Part shown: positions 1,009 through 62,824 of the stretch, one piece after another
Position numbering within the stretch: the first letter of the stretch is position 1
How the letters are laid out: each line of letters starts with the position of its first letter
DNA from: an uncultured Opitutia bacterium
Lineage (GTDB): Bacteria; Verrucomicrobiota; Verrucomicrobiia; Opitutales; Opitutaceae
NCBI GenBank assembly: GCA_903827245.1
Contig: CAIKHO010000048.1
Span: 1-64,000 of the forward strand
DNA length: 64,000 bases
Reading direction: 5' to 3'
Translations under genes and position numbers: made by a program
The notes under the pieces: model-generated
What the model was told of the DNA's origin: nothing
The model's database searches: none
What the model saw: the letters and a program-made list of their open reading frames with translations, nothing else

Positions 1009-1587
1009 TCAGCGGTAGAGTTGCTTCTGCTTGATATACACGATCGACTTGTGGGGTACGAAGTAGTCGAGCGCCAGATCGCGCTTCACGCGATCCCGGA
1101 GTTCAGTGGAGCTGATCGCCAGAAGATGCCCATCGCAACGGTGCAGGCGCAACCCGGGGCTCATGGGCGACGCCTTCACAGGATAGCCCGGGCGTTCCAG
1201 GAAGATAAATTCCACGAGGCTGGACAGCTCGCCAATGTCCTTCCACAGGTGCAGCTTGGGCAGCTGGTCTCCTCCGATGATCCAATAGAGGTCATCCTGG
1301 GGATAAAGCGCCCGGAAATGCCGGGCCGAATCAATGGTGTAGCTGACCCCGCCGCGGCGCAGCTCGTAGTCCGAAACCTCGAAGCGCCGGTCCCACTCGA
1401 TCGCCGCGCTCAACATGGCCATGCGGTCCTCAGGCGACGACTGGACGTCGTTGGGCTTAAGCGGAGCCTGCGCCGCGGGGACAAAGATGAGCCGGTCCAG
1501 TTTGTACTGCTCGTAAGCGTCCTGCGCGGCCATCAGATGGCCAAAATGCACCGGATCGAAACTTCCGCCCAGAAAACCAATTTTCAC
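1009..1587 (-). CDS. nadD: Nicotinate-nucleotide adenylyltransferase NadD
   Basis: This enzyme transfers AMP from ATP to nicotinate mononucleotide in NAD synthesis. The start is taken as the GTG at 1587, which puts GFLGGSFDPVHFGHL at residues 4-18, as in the family; the frame stays open to 1740 but the extra part has no family resemblance and runs up to the tRNA gene. The HFGH motif (the H/TxGH of nucleotidyltransferases) and ISSTELR near the C-terminus (the SxTxxR motif) are both present. Length from GTG is 192 residues, normal for NadD. It is immediately upstream of rsfS with no gap. Confidence 0.93.
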   Translation of the reverse strand: MKIGFLGGSFDPVHFGHLMAAQDAYEQYKLDRLIFVPAAQAPLKPNDVQSSPEDRMAMLSAAIEWDRRFEVSDYELRRGGVSYTIDSARHFRALYPQDDLYWIIGGDQLPKLHLWKDIGELSSLVEFIFLERPGYPVKASPMSPGLRLHRCDGHLLAISSTELRDRVKRDLALDYFVPHKSIVYIKQKQLYR

Positions 1588-1744
1588 AAGCCGGGGAACG
1601 TGCCGCACGTCCCTGCAACCAGCAAGGTTCAATTCCGCCCGACTCTCAGCCAGCCAGAAAGCCTTGGCCGGCCGCGGTGCCTGAACTGACAGCGAGAGTT
1701 GACGCTCGGTCCGGCACACTTGACAGTCGGCGTCCTTCACCGAC

Positions 1745-1830
1745 GCCCGGGTGGCGAAATGGTAGACGCTGGGGACTTAAAATCCCCTGACTGCAAAGTC
1801 ATGCGGGTTCGAGCCCCGCCCCGGGCACCA
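1745..1830 (+). tRNA. tRNA-Leu (anticodon TAA)
   Basis: The cloverleaf closes with GCCCGGG at 1745-1751 pairing with CCCGGGC at 1820-1826, followed by A and an encoded CCA. The anticodon stem GGGGA/TCCCC encloses a loop with TAA. A short variable-arm hairpin (TGACT...AGTCA) marks it as class II, and the T-arm GGGTTCGAGCCCC is intact. Confidence 0.95.
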
Positions 1831-1985
1831 ACCTTCGCCGAGGCTGTGGTCGGCAAGCCAATCAATGGCTGATCCTGCGTACCTGTCCCCTCAACGATTG
1901 TTTCCCGGCGAAGGTTATCCTCCATGCGCCGGGCGGAGGAGGACATTTCAGCCACTCCAGGTGAAAGGGTGCGATCATGCTGCGC

Positions 1986-2915
1986 TCAGGCCGAGGCGGC
2001 TGCTGGCTGCGACATCAACGTTTCGGTCACTGCGCGGCAAAGCCCGACAAACGTTTCCTCGCCGAGGGCGAGTCGCCGGCCCTTGAGGTGGGCCACGCTC
2101 CACTTCCGGCGGAGCTTGCGCGGGCCGAGCGGGAGCGAGACAAGCGAGCCGTTTTCGATTTCCCCGCGCGCGATCCAGGGCGCGAGTACGCCGGTGCCCA
2201 GCCCGATTTTCACCAGTTCCTTGATTGCCTCCATGCTGCCGAGCTCGATGAAATTGCTGAGCAGAACCTTCTCATCGCGAAAATATTCGTTCACGAGCCG
2301 GAAGGTGTAGCTGCTCTTGTTGTACAGCACGAGCGTCTCCTCGGCGATGGCCTCGCGCGGCACCCGGCCCATCCGCACCCACGGGTGCAGCGGGGCCACC
2401 ACGAACCTCAGCTCATCCTGGAACAGCGGGGTGAAGTTGATATCCGTCTGTCCCGCCGGCTCCAGCATGATCGCAAGGTCAATGTGGTTACCCCGGAGCA
2501 GGTCCAGTTGCAGCCCATGGTCGCCGGGCTCGATCTTGATGACGCATTTCGGAAAACTCTGCCGGAATTCCCGCAGCACCGTCGGCAGGATATACTGGCA
2601 GGCGGTCGTGCTGGCCCCGACGCGCAGCCGCCCGTGGCCCCACTTCGTCAGGGTGTCGAGCCCGGCCCGGGCCGCCTCCATCTCGCGCATGATTTTTTCG
2701 GCGTGCCGCAGGAATTGTTCGCCCGCCTGGGTGAGCATGACCCGCTTGCCCGCGCGGTCGACCAGGCGGCAGCCGACTTCCTCCTCCAGGGCCTTGATGG
2801 CGTGGCTGACCGCGGACTGCGTCAAAAAAAGATCCTTCGCCGCCAGCGTGAAACTGCCCCGCCGCGCAAGCGCGGAAAACGCGAGGATCTGGCGGCTGTC
2901 CAGGATGGCCTTCAT
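1986..2915 (-). CDS. LysR-family transcriptional regulator
   Basis: The 309-residue protein has an N-terminal winged helix-turn-helix at about residues 5-62 (FTLAAKDLFLTQSAVSHAIKAL region) and a periplasmic-binding-protein-like effector domain from about residue 90. The phrase GASTTACQYILP at the start of the effector domain resembles CbbR/CysL-type members. The ATG at 2915 is preferred over the upstream TTG/ATG extension because it begins the family homology. It is divergent from the NrtA-like gene, with a 19-bp perfect palindrome in the intervening DNA, so regulation of that neighbour is the obvious inference. The ligand cannot be told from sequence. Confidence 0.9.
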   Translation of the reverse strand: MKAILDSRQILAFSALARRGSFTLAAKDLFLTQSAVSHAIKALEEEVGCRLVDRAGKRVMLTQAGEQFLRHAEKIMREMEAARAGLDTLTKWGHGRLRVGASTTACQYILPTVLREFRQSFPKCVIKIEPGDHGLQLDLLRGNHIDLAIMLEPAGQTDINFTPLFQDELRFVVAPLHPWVRMGRVPREAIAEETLVLYNKSSYTFRLVNEYFRDEKVLLSNFIELGSMEAIKELVKIGLGTGVLAPWIARGEIENGSLVSLPLGPRKLRRKWSVAHLKGRRLALGEETFVGLCRAVTETLMSQPAAASA

Positions 2916-2923
2916 GGATGAGC

Positions 2924-2956
2924 CTGATTCATCAATCGGATGAATTGTTCGATCAG
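2924..2956. promoter_or_regulatory. Palindromic operator candidate between LysR gene and NrtA-like gene
   Basis: At 2927-2945 the sequence is ATTCATC, five bases, GATGAAT: a perfect 7+7 inverted repeat. An outer CTGAT/ATCAG pair (2924-2928 and 2952-2956) extends the symmetry. The site lies 12 bp upstream of the LysR start and about 75 bp upstream of the divergent gene, the position expected for a LysR autoregulatory and activating site. The binding assignment is inference. Confidence 0.45.
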
Positions 2957-3019
2957 CAGTAATTGAGCCATGCGCACCCGGTGGCACGGCGGAGGCTGGA
3001 TTGGCCTCACCTTAAAAGC

Positions 3020-4096
3020 ATGCCGCCCACCGCATCCTCCCACGCCGCTCCCGCGTCGCCGCGCCGAAAGTCCCTGCGGCTGGGCTTCATCCCGCTGACC
3101 GACGCGGCCCCGCTCATCGTGGCGCAGGAGCTCGGGTATTTCACCCGGCATGGCGTCGACGTCGTGCTGCACCGCGAAGTCGGCTGGGCAACCATCCGCG
3201 ACAAGATCATCTACGGCGAACTCGAGGCCGCCCACGCCCCGGCGCCGATGCTGTGGGACGCCGAGCTCGGCCTTAACTGCCCGCCCAGTGCGGTGCTCAC
3301 CGCGCTGGTGCTCAATCTCCACGGCAATGCCCTGACCCTCGCCAACACCCTTTGGGCCGAGGGGGTCAGGGACGACGCCACCCTTCGCGCCCTCGTGCTC
3401 TCCCGGCACGGCGAACGCCGCGTCACGTTCGGGGTCGTCTCCCTGTTCTCCTCGCATCACCTGCTGCTGCGCAACTGGCTTCGCACCGCCGGGATCAATC
3501 CCGACCGCCATGTGCGGATCGTCGTGGTGCCGCCCGCGCAGATGTTCCGCAACCTCGCCGCCGGCACGATCGACGGCTACTGCGCCGGCGAACCGTGGAA
3601 TTCCCTCGCGGTGCGCGAGGGTGCCGGCTGGTGCCCCGCCTGGAGCGCCGCGCTGGCCCCGGGCCATGTCGAGAAGGTGCTCATGGTCACGCAGCGTTTC
3701 GCGGACCGGTTCCCCGCCGAGCATGCCGCGCTCGTGGCCGCGCTCACCGCGGCCTGCGCCTGGTGCGACGAGCCGCAAAACCGCAAGCCTCTCGCCGGGC
3801 TCCTGGCGGGCGCACGCTATCTCAACCTCCCCGTCCGCGTGATCGCGCCCGCCCTGCTCGGCCGGTTCGACTGCGGCCACGGCCGGGTAGAAACCGTGCC
3901 GGACTTCCATGTCTTTCACCGTGACGCGGCCAACGTGCCCTCCGTGGAAAAGGCCGCCGCGCTCCAGCACGACCTGATCGGCGCCGGGCTGCTGCCGCCC
4001 GCCGCCGACCCTCCCCTGCCCCATCGTCTGTTTCGCGAGGATCTCCTGCACGAAGCCTTGCGCCGACACCCGGTGAATCAGCTCATGCCTGCCTAG
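3020..4096 (+). CDS. NrtA/CmpA/NasS-family binding protein without signal peptide
   Basis: The 358-residue protein belongs to the nitrate/bicarbonate substrate-binding family (NMT1-like fold). LRLGFIPLTDAAPLIVAQELGYF occupies residues about 18-40, followed by a typical IRDKIIYGELEAAHAPAPM segment and a YCAGEPWN motif near residue 195. Unlike transporter-bound NrtA it has no signal peptide or lipobox; the N-terminus is an Ala/Pro/Arg-rich stretch, so it should be cytoplasmic. No permease or ATPase adjoins it. That matches NasS, a soluble nitrate/nitrite sensor, although NasS normally works with an ANTAR protein (NasT) not seen here. The ATG at 3020 is chosen over an upstream TTG at 2963. Its divergent partner is a LysR regulator. 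Confidence 0.75.
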   Translation: MPPTASSHAAPASPRRKSLRLGFIPLTDAAPLIVAQELGYFTRHGVDVVLHREVGWATIRDKIIYGELEAAHAPAPMLWDAELGLNCPPSAVLTALVLNLHGNALTLANTLWAEGVRDDATLRALVLSRHGERRVTFGVVSLFSSHHLLLRNWLRTAGINPDRHVRIVVVPPAQMFRNLAAGTIDGYCAGEPWNSLAVREGAGWCPAWSAALAPGHVEKVLMVTQRFADRFPAEHAALVAALTAACAWCDEPQNRKPLAGLLAGARYLNLPVRVIAPALLGRFDCGHGRVETVPDFHVFHRDAANVPSVEKAAALQHDLIGAGLLPPAADPPLPHRLFREDLLHEALRRHPVNQLMPA

Positions 4097-4325
4097 GAGC
4101 TTGGAGGTATCGTCCGGGCCGCTGGGCAGGTTCCTTGGCTCTGCTGAAAGGCCTGCATCGAGTGGTTGGCAGCCGGGCAGCCGTGGAAATAAGCGCGGAT
4201 GAAATCCGGTGCGTTGCCCGGTAAGCGCGCCTTTACCCATAGGGCCTGAACAAAAATGGCTCGCGAGATGGCCCGGCGGGCGCCACAACCGGCGGCTCCA
4301 AACCCTCCCCTGGTTTCCCCACCCT

Positions 4326-6767
<2,442 letters not shown>

Positions 6768-56773: not shown

Positions 56774-57907
56774 ATGAGCCGGAAAATGATCATCGCCGGC
56801 GGCGGCATTGGTGGCATGACCGCCGCACTCGCGCTGCAGCGCGCCGGCCTCGACGTCACGATCTTCGAGCGGGCGCCTGCCTTTGCCGAAGTCGGCGCGG
56901 GCATGAGCCTCTGGCCCAATGCGACCCACGTCCTGCAGTCGCTGGGCGTGCTGGATGAGGTCCTGGCCCGCGGGGAACCGGTCACGCAGTTCAACCTGCA
57001 CCGCCCCGACGGAAAACCCATTTCCACGATCCCGATGGATGGTTTTGCCACGCCCGCCGTTTGCATTCACCGGGCGGATCTGCACCAAGCCCTGCACCAA
57101 TCGCTGCAGTCCGTCGGTCTGGAGCCCAATCAGGTCGTCCAGTCATTTTCCCAACGGCGCGGCCGGGTCACCGCGCGGTTGGCCAGCGGGCTCGAGGCCA
57201 CGGCCGACGGACTGATTGGCGCGGACGGCATCAACTCCGCGATCCGGGCGCAGATTCATGGGGCCGCCCGTCCCATTTACCGGGGCTATTGCATCTGGCG
57301 CGGCATTGCACCGGACACGGGGCGGCGGGTTCGCGGGCACATCAGTGAGACCTGGGGCGCCGGCCAGCGGTTCGGCATCCTGCCCATGGGACAAGGGCGC
57401 ATCTGCTGGTATGCCACCCGCAACGGACCGCCATCGCAGCCCGACGCCCCCGCGGGACGCAAGGCGGAGATTCAAGAACTGTTCGACGACTGGCATCAGC
57501 CCATTCCGGAGCTGATTGCAGCCACACCGCCAGCCAGCATCATGAAGAACGATGCCCACGACCGGAATCCCCTCCGCCAGTGGGGCGAAGGCTGCGTTAC
57601 CCTGCTGGGAGATGCCGCCCACCCGATCACTCCAAATGTCGGCCAGGGAGCCTGCATGGCGATCGAGGATGCCGCCGCGCTGGCCAAGTTCCTGCGTCAG
57701 GCAACCGACACCGCGGCGGCGTTCCGGGACTACGAGAGGATGCGAAAGGCCCGGACCGCTTATGTGGCGCGCCAATCCCGCCGGATCGGTGCAATCGGGC
57801 AATGGGAAAACCCGTGGATCGTGAAAGGGCGCAATTTCATCACCCGGCTTGTCCTCTCGTGCTCGCCCAACGAGCAACTCAACACGGTCTATGCCTACAA
57901 GATCTAG
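56774..57907 (+). CDS. FAD-dependent monooxygenase, salicylate-hydroxylase-like
   Basis: The 377-residue class A flavoprotein has the FAD motif GGGIGGMTAALALQRAG (residues 8-24), the internal GADGINSAIR (DG motif) near 145 and GDAAHPITPNVGQG near 275. These three define PHBH-fold aromatic or heteroaromatic hydroxylases. No membrane segment. The substrate is unknown; no ring-cleavage genes are present. Its 3' end overlaps the start of the yceI gene by 17 bp. Confidence 0.88.
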   Translation: MSRKMIIAGGGIGGMTAALALQRAGLDVTIFERAPAFAEVGAGMSLWPNATHVLQSLGVLDEVLARGEPVTQFNLHRPDGKPISTIPMDGFATPAVCIHRADLHQALHQSLQSVGLEPNQVVQSFSQRRGRVTARLASGLEATADGLIGADGINSAIRAQIHGAARPIYRGYCIWRGIAPDTGRRVRGHISETWGAGQRFGILPMGQGRICWYATRNGPPSQPDAPAGRKAEIQELFDDWHQPIPELIAATPPASIMKNDAHDRNPLRQWGEGCVTLLGDAAHPITPNVGQGACMAIEDAAALAKFLRQATDTAAAFRDYERMRKARTAYVARQSRRIGAIGQWENPWIVKGRNFITRLVLSCSPNEQLNTVYAYKI

Positions 57908-58484
57908 TTCGCGTCCCGTCTCCTTCCCGGCGGCCCGCCTGCTCCTGGCCCTGTGGCTCGTCCCGGCGGCGGTCGCCGCCGCGGGCGATCCCATGGTGAT
58001 CGTGGATTCCGCGCAGTCGCAGGTGGACATTTCCGTGAAGGCCACGGTCGACTCGTTTGTCGCGCACCTCGTGGATTTTGAAACGTCCCTCACCACCGCG
58101 CCGCAGACCGGGCAGATCACGGCGGCGGTCTTCCGTTTCAATTTCGCCTCGATCAAGACCGGCAATACCGACCGTGACCGCGACATGAACGAGTGGCAGC
58201 AAACCCCCAAATTTCCCGACGTGGTTTTCACCCTCGTCGCGCTTGATGCCGGAAGCGACGGGCGGACGGTCGCACGTGGCCAGCTACGTTTTCATGGGAT
58301 CGAAAAAACCGTGAGTTTTCCGGTCGTGATCGAGATCAAGAAGCCGGTCGTCACGGTCGACGGCGATGTGACGATCGATACCCGTGATTACGGACTGCCG
58401 GTGATCAAGAAATACCTGTTCCTGAAGGTCGACCCGGTCGTGGCGGTGCATTTCCATCTCCAGGGAAAACTAGCCGGTTTATAA
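57891..58484 (+). CDS. YceI-family periplasmic lipid-binding protein
   Basis: From the ATG at 57891 the protein has 197 residues with a signal peptide (residues 1-31, ARLLLALWLVPAAVAAA). YceI proteins are lipocalin-like barrels binding isoprenoid chains: VDISVKATVDSFVAHLVDFE, AAVFRFNFASIKTGNTDRDRDM and FHGIEKTVSFPVVIEI are in line with the family. The start lies inside the upstream monooxygenase gene, so translation is probably coupled and the barrel might carry a lipid used or made there; that link is inference. Confidence 0.85.
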   Translation: MPTRSSSRPVSFPAARLLLALWLVPAAVAAAGDPMVIVDSAQSQVDISVKATVDSFVAHLVDFETSLTTAPQTGQITAAVFRFNFASIKTGNTDRDRDMNEWQQTPKFPDVVFTLVALDAGSDGRTVARGQLRFHGIEKTVSFPVVIEIKKPVVTVDGDVTIDTRDYGLPVIKKYLFLKVDPVVAVHFHLQGKLAGL

Positions 58485-58736: not shown

Positions 58737-60212
58737 ATGTCTTTGCGCCAACTTTTCGCCTGCATCGGCCTGACCGCCGGGCTGGCCCAGCCCATCGGGG
58801 CCGCAGAGCGTGAACACAACGCGTGGCCGGTCAGCGTCACCCAGGTCGATGCCCAAGGCGCCACCCAATCGTGGGAGGGAGCCGGGCCGTTGCTGTTCAA
58901 GCAACCCCTGGACGAAGGACGCACCGCGACGGGATTCCGCCCGTTCTATGTCCGGAAGCGCGATGCGGCCGGCAGACTCACCGAGGCCAGCTTCATCTAT
59001 CCGATCCTGACCTATCGCAATGACGGCGACGCCTACCGCTGGAGCCTGCTGCAACTGGTGAACCTCTCCGGCCCGCAACGCGGCGCGCCGACGCAGGGCA
59101 ACTACGACGGCTTTGACGTCTGGCCCTTTTATTTCTCGCGGCAGACCGGTTCACCCGAGACCTCCTATCGCGCCCTTTTCCCGATCGCCGGCACGGTCAA
59201 GGACCGCCTGTTCAACGAGCGCATCTCGTGGGTGCTGTTTCCGGCCTACCTGCGGACGGAAAACCGCGGCGTGACCGCCACCTCGATCCTGTGGCCCTTC
59301 GTGCGCACGATCCATGGCGCCGGCAGCTCGGGCTTTGCGCTGTGGCCGCTCTTCGGCTGGCGCGGCCAGCCCGGGGTTTATCGCAGCGAGTTCTACCTCT
59401 GGCCCCTGATCTACAACAGCGTTTCCCGCCTCGGCGAGCCCGTCCCGGCGGAGTCCTTTGGCGTGCTGCCGTTCTACTCGCGCGAGCACAGCGCCGAGGC
59501 CGTGAGCGAGACGTATGCGTGGCCCTTCCTTGGCTACACCCATCGCACCGCTCCCTATCGCTACGACGAAACCCGTTATTTCTGGCCGTTGTTCGTCCAA
59601 GGCCGGGGTGACGACCGCTACCGGGACCGGTGGGCGCCGTTTTATACCCACTCGATCATCAAGGGCGTGGACAAGACGTGGGTGATGTGGCCGCTGTTCC
59701 GCCAGCAGCGCTGGGTCGACGGCAAGGTCGCCCAAGTCAGGACCCAGTTCCTTTTCTTCATCTACTGGTCGCTCGAGCAGCGCAGCACGACCAATCCGCA
59801 CGCCGCCCCGGCGGAAAAAACCCATTACTGGCCGCTCGCCAGCGTGTGGGACAGCGGCACGGGCCACCGACAGGTCCAGGTGCTGAGCCCGATCGACGTT
59901 TTTTTTCCGACGAACGAAAACATGAACCTGCTCTGGTCGCCGCTCTTTGCCCTCTACCGCTACGATTGGCGGGCGCCCGATGATACGCGGCACTCGCTGC
60001 TTTTCGACCTCGTCACGTGGCGGCGTGAGCCGTCGCGGACGGAGTTTCACCTCGGCCCGCTCCTCGGCGTCGAGTCGTCGGCGTCGGAGGGCCGCATCAC
60101 GCTCGCCGGAGGGCTGGTGCGCCTCCGCCGGACCACGGACGGCCGCGGCTGGCGGCCCTTCTGGTTCGATTTTTCGGCAAAGTCCGCCAATAGTCCGGCC
60201 CAGCAACGCTGA
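58737..60212 (+). CDS. Exported W-P repeat protein of unknown function, first gene of Mla-like operon
   Basis: From the ATG at 58737 (MSLRQLFACIGL) the protein has 491 residues with a signal peptide cleaved near GAAERE (residue 22-24). I do not recognise a family. Between about residues 128 and 320 a short motif, [VLAMF]-[WF]-P-hydrophobic-[FY/hydrophobic], recurs at about residues 129, 148, 168, 186, 203, 222, 244, 262, 283, 300 and 318, a spacing of 17-22. Examples are DVWPFYF, SILWPFVR, FALWPLFG, FYLWPLIY, TYAWPFLG, YFWPLFV and VMWPLFR. Weaker copies continue to residue 440. The aromatic, alternating pattern suggests beta strands, possibly an outer-membrane or periplasmic beta structure. 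It lies 10 bp upstream of mlaE. Confidence 0.75.
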   Translation: MSLRQLFACIGLTAGLAQPIGAAEREHNAWPVSVTQVDAQGATQSWEGAGPLLFKQPLDEGRTATGFRPFYVRKRDAAGRLTEASFIYPILTYRNDGDAYRWSLLQLVNLSGPQRGAPTQGNYDGFDVWPFYFSRQTGSPETSYRALFPIAGTVKDRLFNERISWVLFPAYLRTENRGVTATSILWPFVRTIHGAGSSGFALWPLFGWRGQPGVYRSEFYLWPLIYNSVSRLGEPVPAESFGVLPFYSREHSAEAVSETYAWPFLGYTHRTAPYRYDETRYFWPLFVQGRGDDRYRDRWAPFYTHSIIKGVDKTWVMWPLFRQQRWVDGKVAQVRTQFLFFIYWSLEQRSTTNPHAAPAEKTHYWPLASVWDSGTGHRQVQVLSPIDVFFPTNENMNLLWSPLFALYRYDWRAPDDTRHSLLFDLVTWRREPSRTEFHLGPLLGVESSASEGRITLAGGLVRLRRTTDGRGWRPFWFDFSAKSANSPAQQR

Positions 60213-60222
60213 TCTCCACCGC

Positions 60223-60987
60223 ATGAAGCAAATCACCGCCATCCTCGTGGGCTTCGGCAGCACGATCCAGCTCCTGGTGCGTGCCCTGTCGTACACGGCA
60301 ACGCTGCCGCGGCAATGGGCCCGCTTCATCGAGCAATGCTATCTCATCGGCTATACCACCCTGCCGATTGTCGCCATCCTGAGCTTTTTCATCGGCAGCG
60401 TGCTGGCGCTCCAGGCCGGTTACTCGATGGCGGATTTCGGCGCCAAGGAATTCATCGGCACCCTTGTCGGTCTCTCGATGGCGCGGGAACTCGGGCCCGT
60501 GATGGTCGCCATCCTGGTCGCCGGCCGCGTCGGCTCGGCCATCGCCGCCGAGCTCGCATCCATGAAGGTTTACCAGGAGATCGACGTGCTGGAGACCATG
60601 AACATCCCCCCCGCCCGGATGCTCGTGCTGCCCCGCCTTGCCGCGATCCTCGTCATGATGCCCGTGCTCGCCATCATCGCCGACCTCGTCGGCTGGTACG
60701 GCGGCGCCATCGTGGCGAAATACACCCACGCCATCGCGATCGACCCCGAGACTTACTTCGCGGCCCTGCGCCATTTCATGAAGTTCAAGGACGTCGTGAA
60801 CGGCCTGATGAAGGCGGAGGTGTTCGGTTTCGGCGTCGTGCTCGTCAGCTGCAACATCGGCCTCAATACCAGCGGCGGCCCGCGCGAGGTCGGCGCCTCC
60901 GTGACCAAGGCCGTCGTCGTCTCGCTGATCCTGATCCTCGTGGCCGACTACTTCATCACCGACGTCCTCCAGCAAATTTTCCCGTAA
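60223..60987 (+). CDS. mlaE: MlaE-family ABC transporter permease
   Basis: The 254-residue permease starts 10 bp after the W-P repeat gene. FIGSVLALQAGYSMADFGAKEFIG, LVGLSMARELGPVMVAILVAGRVGS (the E-L-G-P conserved turn) and AAELASMKVYQEIDVLETM are family signatures. Five helices are predicted. With MlaF and MlaD it forms a phospholipid or lipid transporter at the inner membrane. Its stop (TAA at 60985) overlaps the mlaF ATG by one base. Confidence 0.93.
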   Translation: MKQITAILVGFGSTIQLLVRALSYTATLPRQWARFIEQCYLIGYTTLPIVAILSFFIGSVLALQAGYSMADFGAKEFIGTLVGLSMARELGPVMVAILVAGRVGSAIAAELASMKVYQEIDVLETMNIPPARMLVLPRLAAILVMMPVLAIIADLVGWYGGAIVAKYTHAIAIDPETYFAALRHFMKFKDVVNGLMKAEVFGFGVVLVSCNIGLNTSGGPREVGASVTKAVVVSLILILVADYFITDVLQQIFP

Positions 60988-61799
60988 TGCCCTCCCCTTC
61001 CTCCAGCGCCACCCGCAATCCGTTCACCGAGGCCGAAACGCCGGCCGTGGGTGTTGCGCTCGAACACCTCGTGAAGGACTTTGGCAGCCACAAGGTGCTC
61101 AAGGACGTCAGCTTTGCCGTCTCACCCGGGGAAATCTTCGTGCTCATGGGGCCGAGCGGTTCCGGCAAGAGTGTGCTGCTGAAGCAAATTGTCGGGCTCG
61201 AGGCTCCCACCTCGGGCCGGGTCCTCGTCGACGGCCGGGACGCCATCGACCCCGCCACCCGCGAGCAGGTGCGCATGGCCCTCGTTTTCCAGTCCGGCGC
61301 ACTCTTCAATTCGCTGTCCGTCTACGACAACCTCGCGCTTTATCCGCGGGAACACCGAGTCGCCAGCGAGGCCGCCATCCGCGAAAAGGTGATGCGGGCG
61401 CTCCAGATCATCTCGCTGGAAGACACCGCGGACAAATTCCCCTCCGAGCTCTCCGGCGGCATGAAGAAGCGCGTGGCCATCGCCCGCGCCCTCGTGATGG
61501 AGCCGCAACTCATGCTTTACGACGAGCCTACCAGCGAGCTCGACCCCGTGACCAGCGCCTCGATCAGCGAGATCATCGCCACCCTGCGGGAGGAGTACCA
61601 CGTGACGACCATCGTGGTTTCGCACGACCGTGACCTCGCGCTCAACATCGCCGACTGCATCGGCCTGCTCATCGGCGGCGAGCTCATCTTCAACGGCACG
61701 CCGGCCGAGCTGCGCGCGTCGAAGGACCCGGTCATCACCGATTTCCTGAATCCGAAAATCGACCTGAAGAACCCGCGTTTCAAGAAACTCGCCACCTAA
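60987..61799 (+). CDS. mlaF: MlaF-family ABC transporter ATP-binding protein
   Basis: The 270-residue ATPase has Walker A MGPSGSGKSVLLKQIVGLE, Q-loop VFQSGALFNSLSVYDN, signature SGGMKKRVAIARAL, Walker B MLYDEPTSELDP and H-loop VVSHDRD. The usual T-S-G-L-D-P is T-S-E-L-D-P here, and SGALFNSLSVYDN is a hallmark of MlaF/Mkl-type ATPases. It powers the MlaE permease. MlaD follows 32 bp later. Confidence 0.95.
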   Translation: MPSPSSSATRNPFTEAETPAVGVALEHLVKDFGSHKVLKDVSFAVSPGEIFVLMGPSGSGKSVLLKQIVGLEAPTSGRVLVDGRDAIDPATREQVRMALVFQSGALFNSLSVYDNLALYPREHRVASEAAIREKVMRALQIISLEDTADKFPSELSGGMKKRVAIARALVMEPQLMLYDEPTSELDPVTSASISEIIATLREEYHVTTIVVSHDRDLALNIADCIGLLIGGELIFNGTPAELRASKDPVITDFLNPKIDLKNPRFKKLAT

Positions 61800-61831
61800 A
61801 ACCACTTTGCCCTCCAACCGGAGAACCACAC

Positions 61832-62824
61832 ATGAATAACGCACAACAGACCGCCCGCGTCGGGCTTTTCTTCCTCCTCGGCCTCGCCCTCGTCTGGGTG
61901 ACCTTCGAGACCCTCAGTGATGGCAAGCTCTTCAAGGACCGCGGCTACACCGTGGTCGCGGGTTTTGACGACCTGCGCCAGCTGAAGATCGGCGACGAGG
62001 TGCGCATGGCCGGCGTCAAGATCGGCTCGGTCGAAAAGACCCGCCTCGCCGGCCGTCGCGCCGAGGCCGTCCTGCGCATCGATCCCGACGTGCAGATAGC
62101 CGGCGACGCGAGCGCCACCATCGTTATGTCCGGTCTTATCGGCAGCAACTACATCGGCATCGACCTCGGCACCCGCGGCACGGCTCCCCTGCAGCCCGGG
62201 GCCGAGATCCACACGAGCGTCACGCCCGACATCAACGCCATCATGACCCAGCTCGGCAACCTCGGCAGCAAGTTCGACAGCGCGCTCGGTACTCTGGGCG
62301 ATTCCCTGAAGGGCAAGGACGGACAACCGGGCCTGTTTCAAAAGCTCGACACCCTCGTTGGCGAAAACGGGAGCAAGATCACTGCGACCATGACCAACCT
62401 CCAGGAGGTCACGGCCAAGTTGAACAAGGGCGAAGGCACCATGGGCAAGCTGATCAACGATCCCAAGCTGCACGACGACCTTCTTGCCACGGTGGACGAG
62501 ATCAAGTCCGCCGCGACCCAGGCCAAGACCTTCGTGGCCGACGCCCAGACGATCATCGACCAGGTGAAGTCCGGCAAGGGCCCGCTCGGCACGCTCGTCT
62601 TTGACGAGACGACCGCCAACAACCTCAAGGCCACCGTGAAGAATGTGCGCGATGTGTCCGACAAGCTCGCGCGTGGCGAAGGCACCCTCGGCAAGCTGAT
62701 CAACGACGACAGCCTTTACCTCAGCGCCCAGGGCACCTTGAAGAAGGCCGACCGCGCGCTCGATGGGTTGGACGACACCGGCCCGATCAACGCGCTCGGG
62801 ACCGTGGCAAAGTCGCTGTTCTAG
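61832..62824 (+). CDS. mlaD: MlaD/MCE-family lipid-binding protein
   Basis: The 330-residue protein has an N-terminal membrane helix (residues 9-25, RVGLFFLLGLALVWVTFE) and one MCE domain (about 35-125; DDLRQLKIGDEVRMAGVKIG, LIGSNYIGIDLGT). The helical tail contains three copies of a Gly-rich unit: KGEGTMGKLINDPKL, SGKGPLGTLVFDETT and RGEGTLGKLINDDSLY at about residues 199, 248 and 284. Such tails are common in MCE proteins and may form a helical tunnel across the periplasm. It closes the operon. Confidence 0.93.
   Translation: MNNAQQTARVGLFFLLGLALVWVTFETLSDGKLFKDRGYTVVAGFDDLRQLKIGDEVRMAGVKIGSVEKTRLAGRRAEAVLRIDPDVQIAGDASATIVMSGLIGSNYIGIDLGTRGTAPLQPGAEIHTSVTPDINAIMTQLGNLGSKFDSALGTLGDSLKGKDGQPGLFQKLDTLVGENGSKITATMTNLQEVTAKLNKGEGTMGKLINDPKLHDDLLATVDEIKSAATQAKTFVADAQTIIDQVKSGKGPLGTLVFDETTANNLKATVKNVRDVSDKLARGEGTLGKLINDDSLYLSAQGTLKKADRALDGLDDTGPINALGTVAKSLF

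Follow-up and report, generated by a model that had tools for sequence, protein, structure and literature searches.

A tryptophan-proline repeat protein as the probable envelope-side partner of an Mla transporter subtype in Verrucomicrobiota

The classical Mla system consists of MlaFEDB together with MlaC and MlaA, and TGD1-2-3 is the MlaEFD-like importer of plastids. Here, we analyzed a 64,000-nucleotide stretch of contig CAIKHO010000048.1 from an uncultured Opitutia bacterium (the whole stretch is hereafter called the window), in which genes for an MlaE-type permease, an MlaF-type ATPase, and a long MlaD (MCE protein) are led by a gene for an exported repeat protein. This 491-residue product of positions 58737 to 60212, which we label WP, is probably a dedicated envelope-side partner of a distinct Mla (MCE) transporter subtype, a reading to which we assign a probability of about 0.62 on the strength of comparative sequence analysis.

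Grasekamp et al. 2023 reported that bacterial MlaD proteins are mostly long and that only about 10% have an outer-membrane barrel, and that a long, barrel-bearing MlaD tends to accompany the absence of MlaA and MlaC (PMC10665443). MlaD proteins of the Planctomycetes-Verrucomicrobia-Chlamydiae (PVC) group are without a C-terminal barrel, and for such barrel-less proteins either a six-stranded tip or a need for unidentified helper proteins has been put forward as possible (PMC10665443). Elsewhere, separate proteins occupy the outer-membrane side. For instance, PqiC is the outer-membrane partner that tethers the tunnel-forming MCE protein PqiB (PMC10897342), and TGD4 is an outer-envelope protein that binds phosphatidic acid (PMC8005216).

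The system in the window can be set beside each of these. It resembles the minimal MlaEFD system of Veillonella parvula in its long MlaD, in its lack of MlaA and MlaC, and in a presumed periplasm-crossing tunnel; however, the Veillonella MlaD has a C-terminal outer-membrane barrel, whereas the WP-linked MlaD has a short hydrophobic tail and is accompanied by WP as a separate protein (PMC10665443). With PqiABC it shares a tunnel-type MCE protein and a separate partner on the outer-membrane side, but PqiC is a small lipoprotein that forms an octameric ring, while WP is a 491-residue repeat protein that lacks a lipobox (PMC10897342). The likeness to TGD1-2-3/TGD4 lies in the separate outer-envelope protein and concerns arrangement, with no claim of homology (PMC8005216). 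The PqiC-PqiB and TGD4-TGD1-2-3 pairs are worth comparing with WP-MlaD for the role that WP may play, and not for descent. Finally, MlaE, MlaF, and the MCE domain of MlaD are homologous to those of the classical Mla system, and the same phylum has true mlaE-F-D-C-A operons (e.g., locus L342, 3480-6897). In contrast, the WP operon is without MlaA, MlaC, and an operon-borne MlaB, its MlaD is about 330 residues long rather than about 153, and WP is added as the first gene. The features of the locus are as follows.

58737 to 60212, forward strand: WP gene, 491 residues, exported repeat protein outside any named family (no Pfam or PDB match; the start codon lines up with that of close relatives)
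58737 to 58802, forward strand: predicted signal peptide of WP, residues ~1-22 (MSLRQLFACIGLTAGLAQPIGA), lipobox absent (sequence inspection)
58809 to 60176, forward strand: ~23 hydrophobic units with a ~19-residue period, WP residues ~25-480 (spectral peak, conserved prolines, unit profile)
59124 to 59693, forward strand: eleven aromatic/hydrophobic-Pro copies, WP residues 130-319 (sequence, alignment conservation)
60223 to 60987, forward strand: MlaE-type permease, 254 residues, WP-linked subtype (PF02405, 3.3e-75; TIGR00056; MlaE tree)
60987 to 61799, forward strand: MlaF-type ATP-binding cassette (ABC) ATPase, 270 residues (PF00005, 7.9e-35; place beside MlaE conserved)
61832 to 62824, forward strand: long MlaD (MCE protein), 330 residues, no C-terminal barrel by sequence (PF02470, 7.2e-17)
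62774 to 62821, forward strand: conserved hydrophobic C-terminal tail of MlaD (..DTGPINALGTVAKSLF), last residue Phe, candidate docking tip (shared tail)

The operon order is WP-MlaE-MlaF-MlaD, with spacings of +10 bp, -1 bp (an overlap), and +32 bp. An earlier note on this DNA, made from the sequence without database searches, had given these coordinates and spacings exactly, and its naming of the permease, ATPase, and MCE genes is borne out by PF02405, PF00005, and PF02470. The window MlaE also scores 224 bits against TIGR00056 (cut-off, 212), and the PF02470 match covers residues 37 to 111 of MlaD; both proteins are recognized by Pfam and have solved relatives. A signal peptide had been predicted on the first product as well, and inspection places it at residues 1-22, with a hydrophobic N terminus and a putative small-residue cleavage site recurring among WP relatives. 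Across the window's whole genome, searches with PF04333 and PF05494, which recover MlaA and MlaC in E. coli and Caulobacter, returned 0 matches to mlaA and mlaC. An mlaB (STAS) gene is not present in the operon, and the remainder of the genome was not searched for one; thus, the absence of mla genes that the note had described extends to the whole genome for mlaA and mlaC and applies to the operon for mlaB.

The association of WP with the transporter is well supported by gene neighborhoods. Of 185 distinct WP homologues, 181 have readable flanks; the other 4 run off the end of a contig. MlaE lies downstream of WP in 161 of the 181 (85/87 close homologues and 76/94 distant ones), starting at most 300 nucleotides away in 156 (including one in-frame fusion) and 0.3 to 1.6 kb away in 5 more. 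The spacing is usually -4 to +15 nucleotides in close relatives and about 50 to 60 nucleotides in distant ones, and the WP-MlaE-MlaF-MlaD order is retained even by deep homologues from different lineages of the phylum. WP is carried by 33 of the 57 nearest genomes, by 74 of 273 sampled genomes of the order, and by 124 of 289 of the phylum. Homologues are therefore not found mostly away from mla genes, an outcome that the earlier note had named as telling against its proposal of a lipid transport partner; its phrase "in this lineage" proved too narrow, since the linkage holds and WP is found throughout the phylum.

Sequence identities and trees also indicate that WP and a WP-type MlaE subtype occur jointly across the phylum. 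In the window's family and order, MlaE proteins encoded beside WP are 54 to 84% identical to the window MlaE; 28 of 30 WP-lacking genomes have an MlaE, none of which is more than 41% identical to it. On the MlaE tree, WP linkage requires 6 changes versus 39 with shuffled labels. Even where the two genes are separated, they tend to stay in the same genome: the MlaE proteins of G044, G048, G155, G175, and G240 group among WP-linked MlaE, those of G136, G243, and G248 branch beside it, and all eight genomes have WP elsewhere.

Domain searches show that genomes of the order bear either a WP cassette or the classical cassette of short MlaD, MlaC, and MlaA. PF04333 (MlaA) and PF05494 (MlaC) match the identical 13 of 54 relatives, of which just G025 also has WP. 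Order-wide, WP and MlaA occur together in 1 of 273 genomes (G316) where 16 are expected (Fisher p 1.5e-8), and in the window's family in 1 of 36 (p 2.6e-6), p-values that take no account of relatedness. WP changes state about 9 times on an RpoB tree, without a single shift of MlaA/C in the same direction; among independent pairs on well-supported branches, MlaA/C changed oppositely in about 3, was unchanged in about 2, and never changed in the same way. From these distributions, WP seems to stand in for MlaC and MlaA.

The accompanying MlaD also comes in two kinds. The median length of WP-linked MlaD proteins is 330 residues among close relatives and 325 among distant ones, and these proteins end in a conserved hydrophobic tail (e.g., GPITAVGVAANALF and SPITTFSSIFFGAF), whose terminal residue is F or L in 98 of 98. 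The hydrophobic tail is not shared by the ~153-residue MlaD proteins of classical operons in the same phylum, which end mostly in polar residues, and we regard it as a candidate docking peptide. A C-terminal outer-membrane barrel of the Veillonella type was not found on the 330-residue window MlaD, which has the short hydrophobic tail instead. Likewise, a low-confidence model of this protein (predicted local distance difference test [pLDDT], 43) places the N-terminal membrane helix at residues 3-27 and a helical stretch past the MCE domain, with no strand region C-terminal to that domain. Because PVC MlaD proteins are barrel-less and helper proteins have been suggested for them (PMC10665443), WP fits this gap.

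WP itself has 0 Pfam matches at E<=1 and, whether searched singly or as a 25-sequence profile, 0 PDB matches at E<=10. Neither WP nor 24 of its relatives has a Pfam or NCBIfam match of the MlaA, MlaC, or PqiC type, which agrees with the initial impression of a protein unlike MlaA or MlaC. A clear match to a known unrelated family, the other outcome that the earlier note had named as telling against its proposal, did not appear. Its sole weak family resemblance is to NCBIfam NF047486, the LA_1737 C-terminal family of Leptospira, at 15.2 bits (E 0.015) for the window WP and 28.1 bits (E 1.7e-6) for the best relative, both under the cut-off of 60 bits. Membership in this family was rejected because the two matches fall below the curated cut-off and are out of register, lying at different positions in the protein; they point to a shared repeat type, and the weak similarity suggests that related repeat proteins exist in Leptospira. 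Named relatives come from uncultured Opitutae and Verrucomicrobia bacteria. Outside the phylum, viral contigs and plasmids were searched and gave no homologues, and no description of WP was found in the open-access literature. The transporter core is of a known kind; its subtype is defined by WP, apparently a protein family not described so far.

The repeat is the most distinctive property of WP. About eleven aromatic-Pro copies had been noticed at about residues 128-320, and these are confirmed at P130, 149, 169, 187, 204, 223, 245, 263, 284, 301, and 319, with all eleven prolines 95 to 100% conserved in a 177-sequence alignment that spans the phylum. The full extent had been underestimated. 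P51, P69, P89, P366, P402, and P441 are conserved at >=92% in the same alignment, and the spectrum of family-averaged hydrophobicity along the full mature protein is dominated by a peak at 19.8 residues, with 28 times the mean power; together, this period and the range of conserved prolines from P51 to P441 imply about 23 units over nearly the entire mature protein. Each unit begins with a polar turn (G, N, D, P), continues through F/W, a small residue, L/V, W/F, Pro, L/F, Y/F/W, G/S, and R, and closes with another turn; charge is essentially never present at positions -2 and +1 relative to the unit proline. The mature protein has 9 WP dipeptides, compared with a mean of 1.7 and a maximum of 7 in 20,000 shuffles. 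The overall aromatic-Pro count of 13 (shuffled mean, 5.7; maximum, 14) is less striking, and because it comes close to the shuffled maximum, the argument for a repeat relies on conservation and spacing.

Coevolution offers a view of the fold. In a mean-field analysis of 177 WP sequences (effective number, 160), the antiparallel band of neighboring units holds 8 of the top 20 short-range pairs, with 2.1 expected after matching for separation, and 25 of the top 80, with 8.5 expected; these counts collapse once the anchors are moved by 3 to 6 residues. Hairpins between successive units imply a beta meander, and WP is in this way supported, indirectly, as a meander of about 23 antiparallel strands centered on Trp/Phe-Pro and hydrophobic on both faces. 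The beta-rich character that the earlier note had proposed thus receives backing of an indirect kind from the hydrophobic repeat and the hairpin coevolution. A beta-solenoid was considered and rejected because nearest neighboring units coevolve as hairpins, though a weaker parallel signal persists. The predicted signal peptide accords with an outer-membrane barrel, while the first and last strands give no resolved coevolution signal of barrel closure, and in the window WP a polar 12-residue tail comes after WRPFWFDF, in place of the C-terminal aromatic barrel signal.

Most likely, we propose, WP is exported as a beta-meander, which may form a barrel in the outer membrane, and it accepts the tip of a long-MlaD bridge and replaces MlaC and MlaA; its fold, cell location, and lipid role are what we infer here. 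Six long MlaD chains would form a helical tunnel spanning the periplasm, and their hydrophobic C-terminal tails would meet WP at the outer membrane, where WP may be either a barrel or a beta-rich receptor at the inner face. Lipids could then pass between WP and the MlaEF ATPase, in either direction, without a soluble MlaC shuttle. A bolder version, which we hold tentatively and at somewhat less than even odds, makes WP a 22- to 24-stranded outer-membrane lipid portal of a new family, with a hydrophobic interior, plugged directly onto the tips of a six-fold long-MlaD tunnel. Such a portal would complete a continuous conduit from the inner to the outer membrane, widespread in the phylum and cassette-exchanged with MlaFEDCA.

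Several observations weigh against this reading. WP is not beside mlaE in 20 of 181 cases (18 distant, 2 close), and outside the order 14 sampled genomes have both WP and MlaA. The tree-corrected pair test of the exchange, directionally perfect, falls short of significance (median p 0.25), as the 5 supported pairs are too few. AlphaFold on 3 WP sequences gave a pLDDT of 29 and no usable structural model, and coevolution backs hairpin turns rather than full strand pairing, with long strand arms unresolved and a parallel signal, though a weaker one, where the separation is at least 21. Also, strands that are hydrophobic on both faces and have a mid-strand proline are unusual in outer-membrane barrels, and an aromatic lies among the last three residues in just 26 of 176 WP members. 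Given the hydrophobicity of both faces and the mostly absent C-terminal aromatic, an outer-membrane barrel is favored but not established.

Some of these points suit other explanations. WP could be periplasmic and not an outer-membrane protein, serving as a lipid carrier or an open beta-groove, functionally akin to MlaC or to the repeating-beta-groove bridges TamB/YhdP, whose hydrophobic face binds lipid and exchanges it with MlaD: both strand faces are hydrophobic, the canonical C-terminal outer-membrane signal is mostly missing, WP substitutes for MlaC as well as MlaA, and about 23 antiparallel hairpins suit a groove. We consider this unlikely, since a long MlaD should render a shuttle unnecessary (PMC10665443), WP has no Pfam similarity to AsmA, TamB, or MlaC families, and a closed meander would agree just as well with the short turns and the strict length of the units. 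The strict coupling of WP to long MlaD and its conserved hydrophobic tail, together with the precedent of PqiC as an outer-membrane tether of a tunnel-forming MCE protein (PMC10897342), would also agree with a factor that assembles or anchors the tunnel and makes no lipid contact; nevertheless, 491 hydrophobic-repeat residues with near-invariant Trp-Pro motifs exceed the needs of an anchor, WP lacks a lipobox, and such a role strikes us as quite improbable. That WP-MlaEFD moves a different lipid or hydrophobic compound, with the exclusion of MlaA/MlaC reflecting envelope chemistry or lineage history, draws on the 14 genomes with both systems, on each cassette having its own MlaEFD, and on the clustering of both WP and MlaA/C on the RpoB tree. 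We give this little credence, because unrelated substrates would not predict exclusion, coexistence in the order is 1/273 versus 16 expected, and the RpoB tree shows several switches that are independent of one another. Finally, the 20 genes not beside mlaE, some of which adjoin an lpxC-like or phosphomannomutase-like gene, could indicate an unrelated exported protein that shares the mlaEFD promoter by chance. This is extremely improbable: the gene order persists phylum-wide at less than 40% identity, start and stop codons overlap, WP is co-lost with WP-type MlaE, and the separated pairs that were examined keep WP elsewhere in the genome.

Partnership of WP with the transporter, the reading we prefer, bears on how a barrel-less long MlaD engages the outer membrane, a question left open in the literature. 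In this phylum of two-membrane bacteria, WP is almost always found with the transporter, belongs to no named family, and seems to stand in for MlaC/MlaA; it is therefore a candidate for the missing outer-membrane end and offers a concrete, conserved Verrucomicrobiota candidate for the unidentified helper of barrel-less MlaD (PMC10665443). Moreover, because related genera carry either WP with long MlaD or MlaC/MlaA with short MlaD, they provide natural swaps between a fixed bridge and a shuttle. The retention of WP in genomes of 0.7 to 1.1 Mb hints at a gene not easily lost; in these genomes (L206-L212), the adjoining MlaE is retained too, and the WP stop and MlaE start overlap by about 13 to 16 nucleotides.

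Individual loci depart from the common layout. At L031:1450-3507 and L220 (genome G012), WP and MlaE form a single 686-residue open reading frame without the last ~50 WP residues, which may be a fusion or a sequence error. The distance from WP to mlaE is 0.5 to 1.5 kb at L197, L192, L200, and L201, all from one family, and at L131 (G243) a WP-like domain lies at the end of an open frame (1047-6581) that encodes about 1845 residues. At two loci that lack mlaE, the WP gene follows an lpxC-like gene (L272, 3341-5940) or overlaps a preceding phosphomannomutase-like gene (L295, 3110-5970). As for the classical components, many MlaA domains outside the order lie within open frames of 600 to 880 residues, suggesting enlarged or fused MlaA.

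In the window, a YceI-like gene of the exported lipid-binding type lies at 57849-58484, 252 bp 5' of WP; it was rejected as part of the system because no YceI homologue was found in any relative's retrieved locus. The window's genome also has two more MCE loci without WP, G000:C21:11322-11846 and G000:C9:37734-38039 (L002, L004, L003), one of which has two MCE domains within a single frame.

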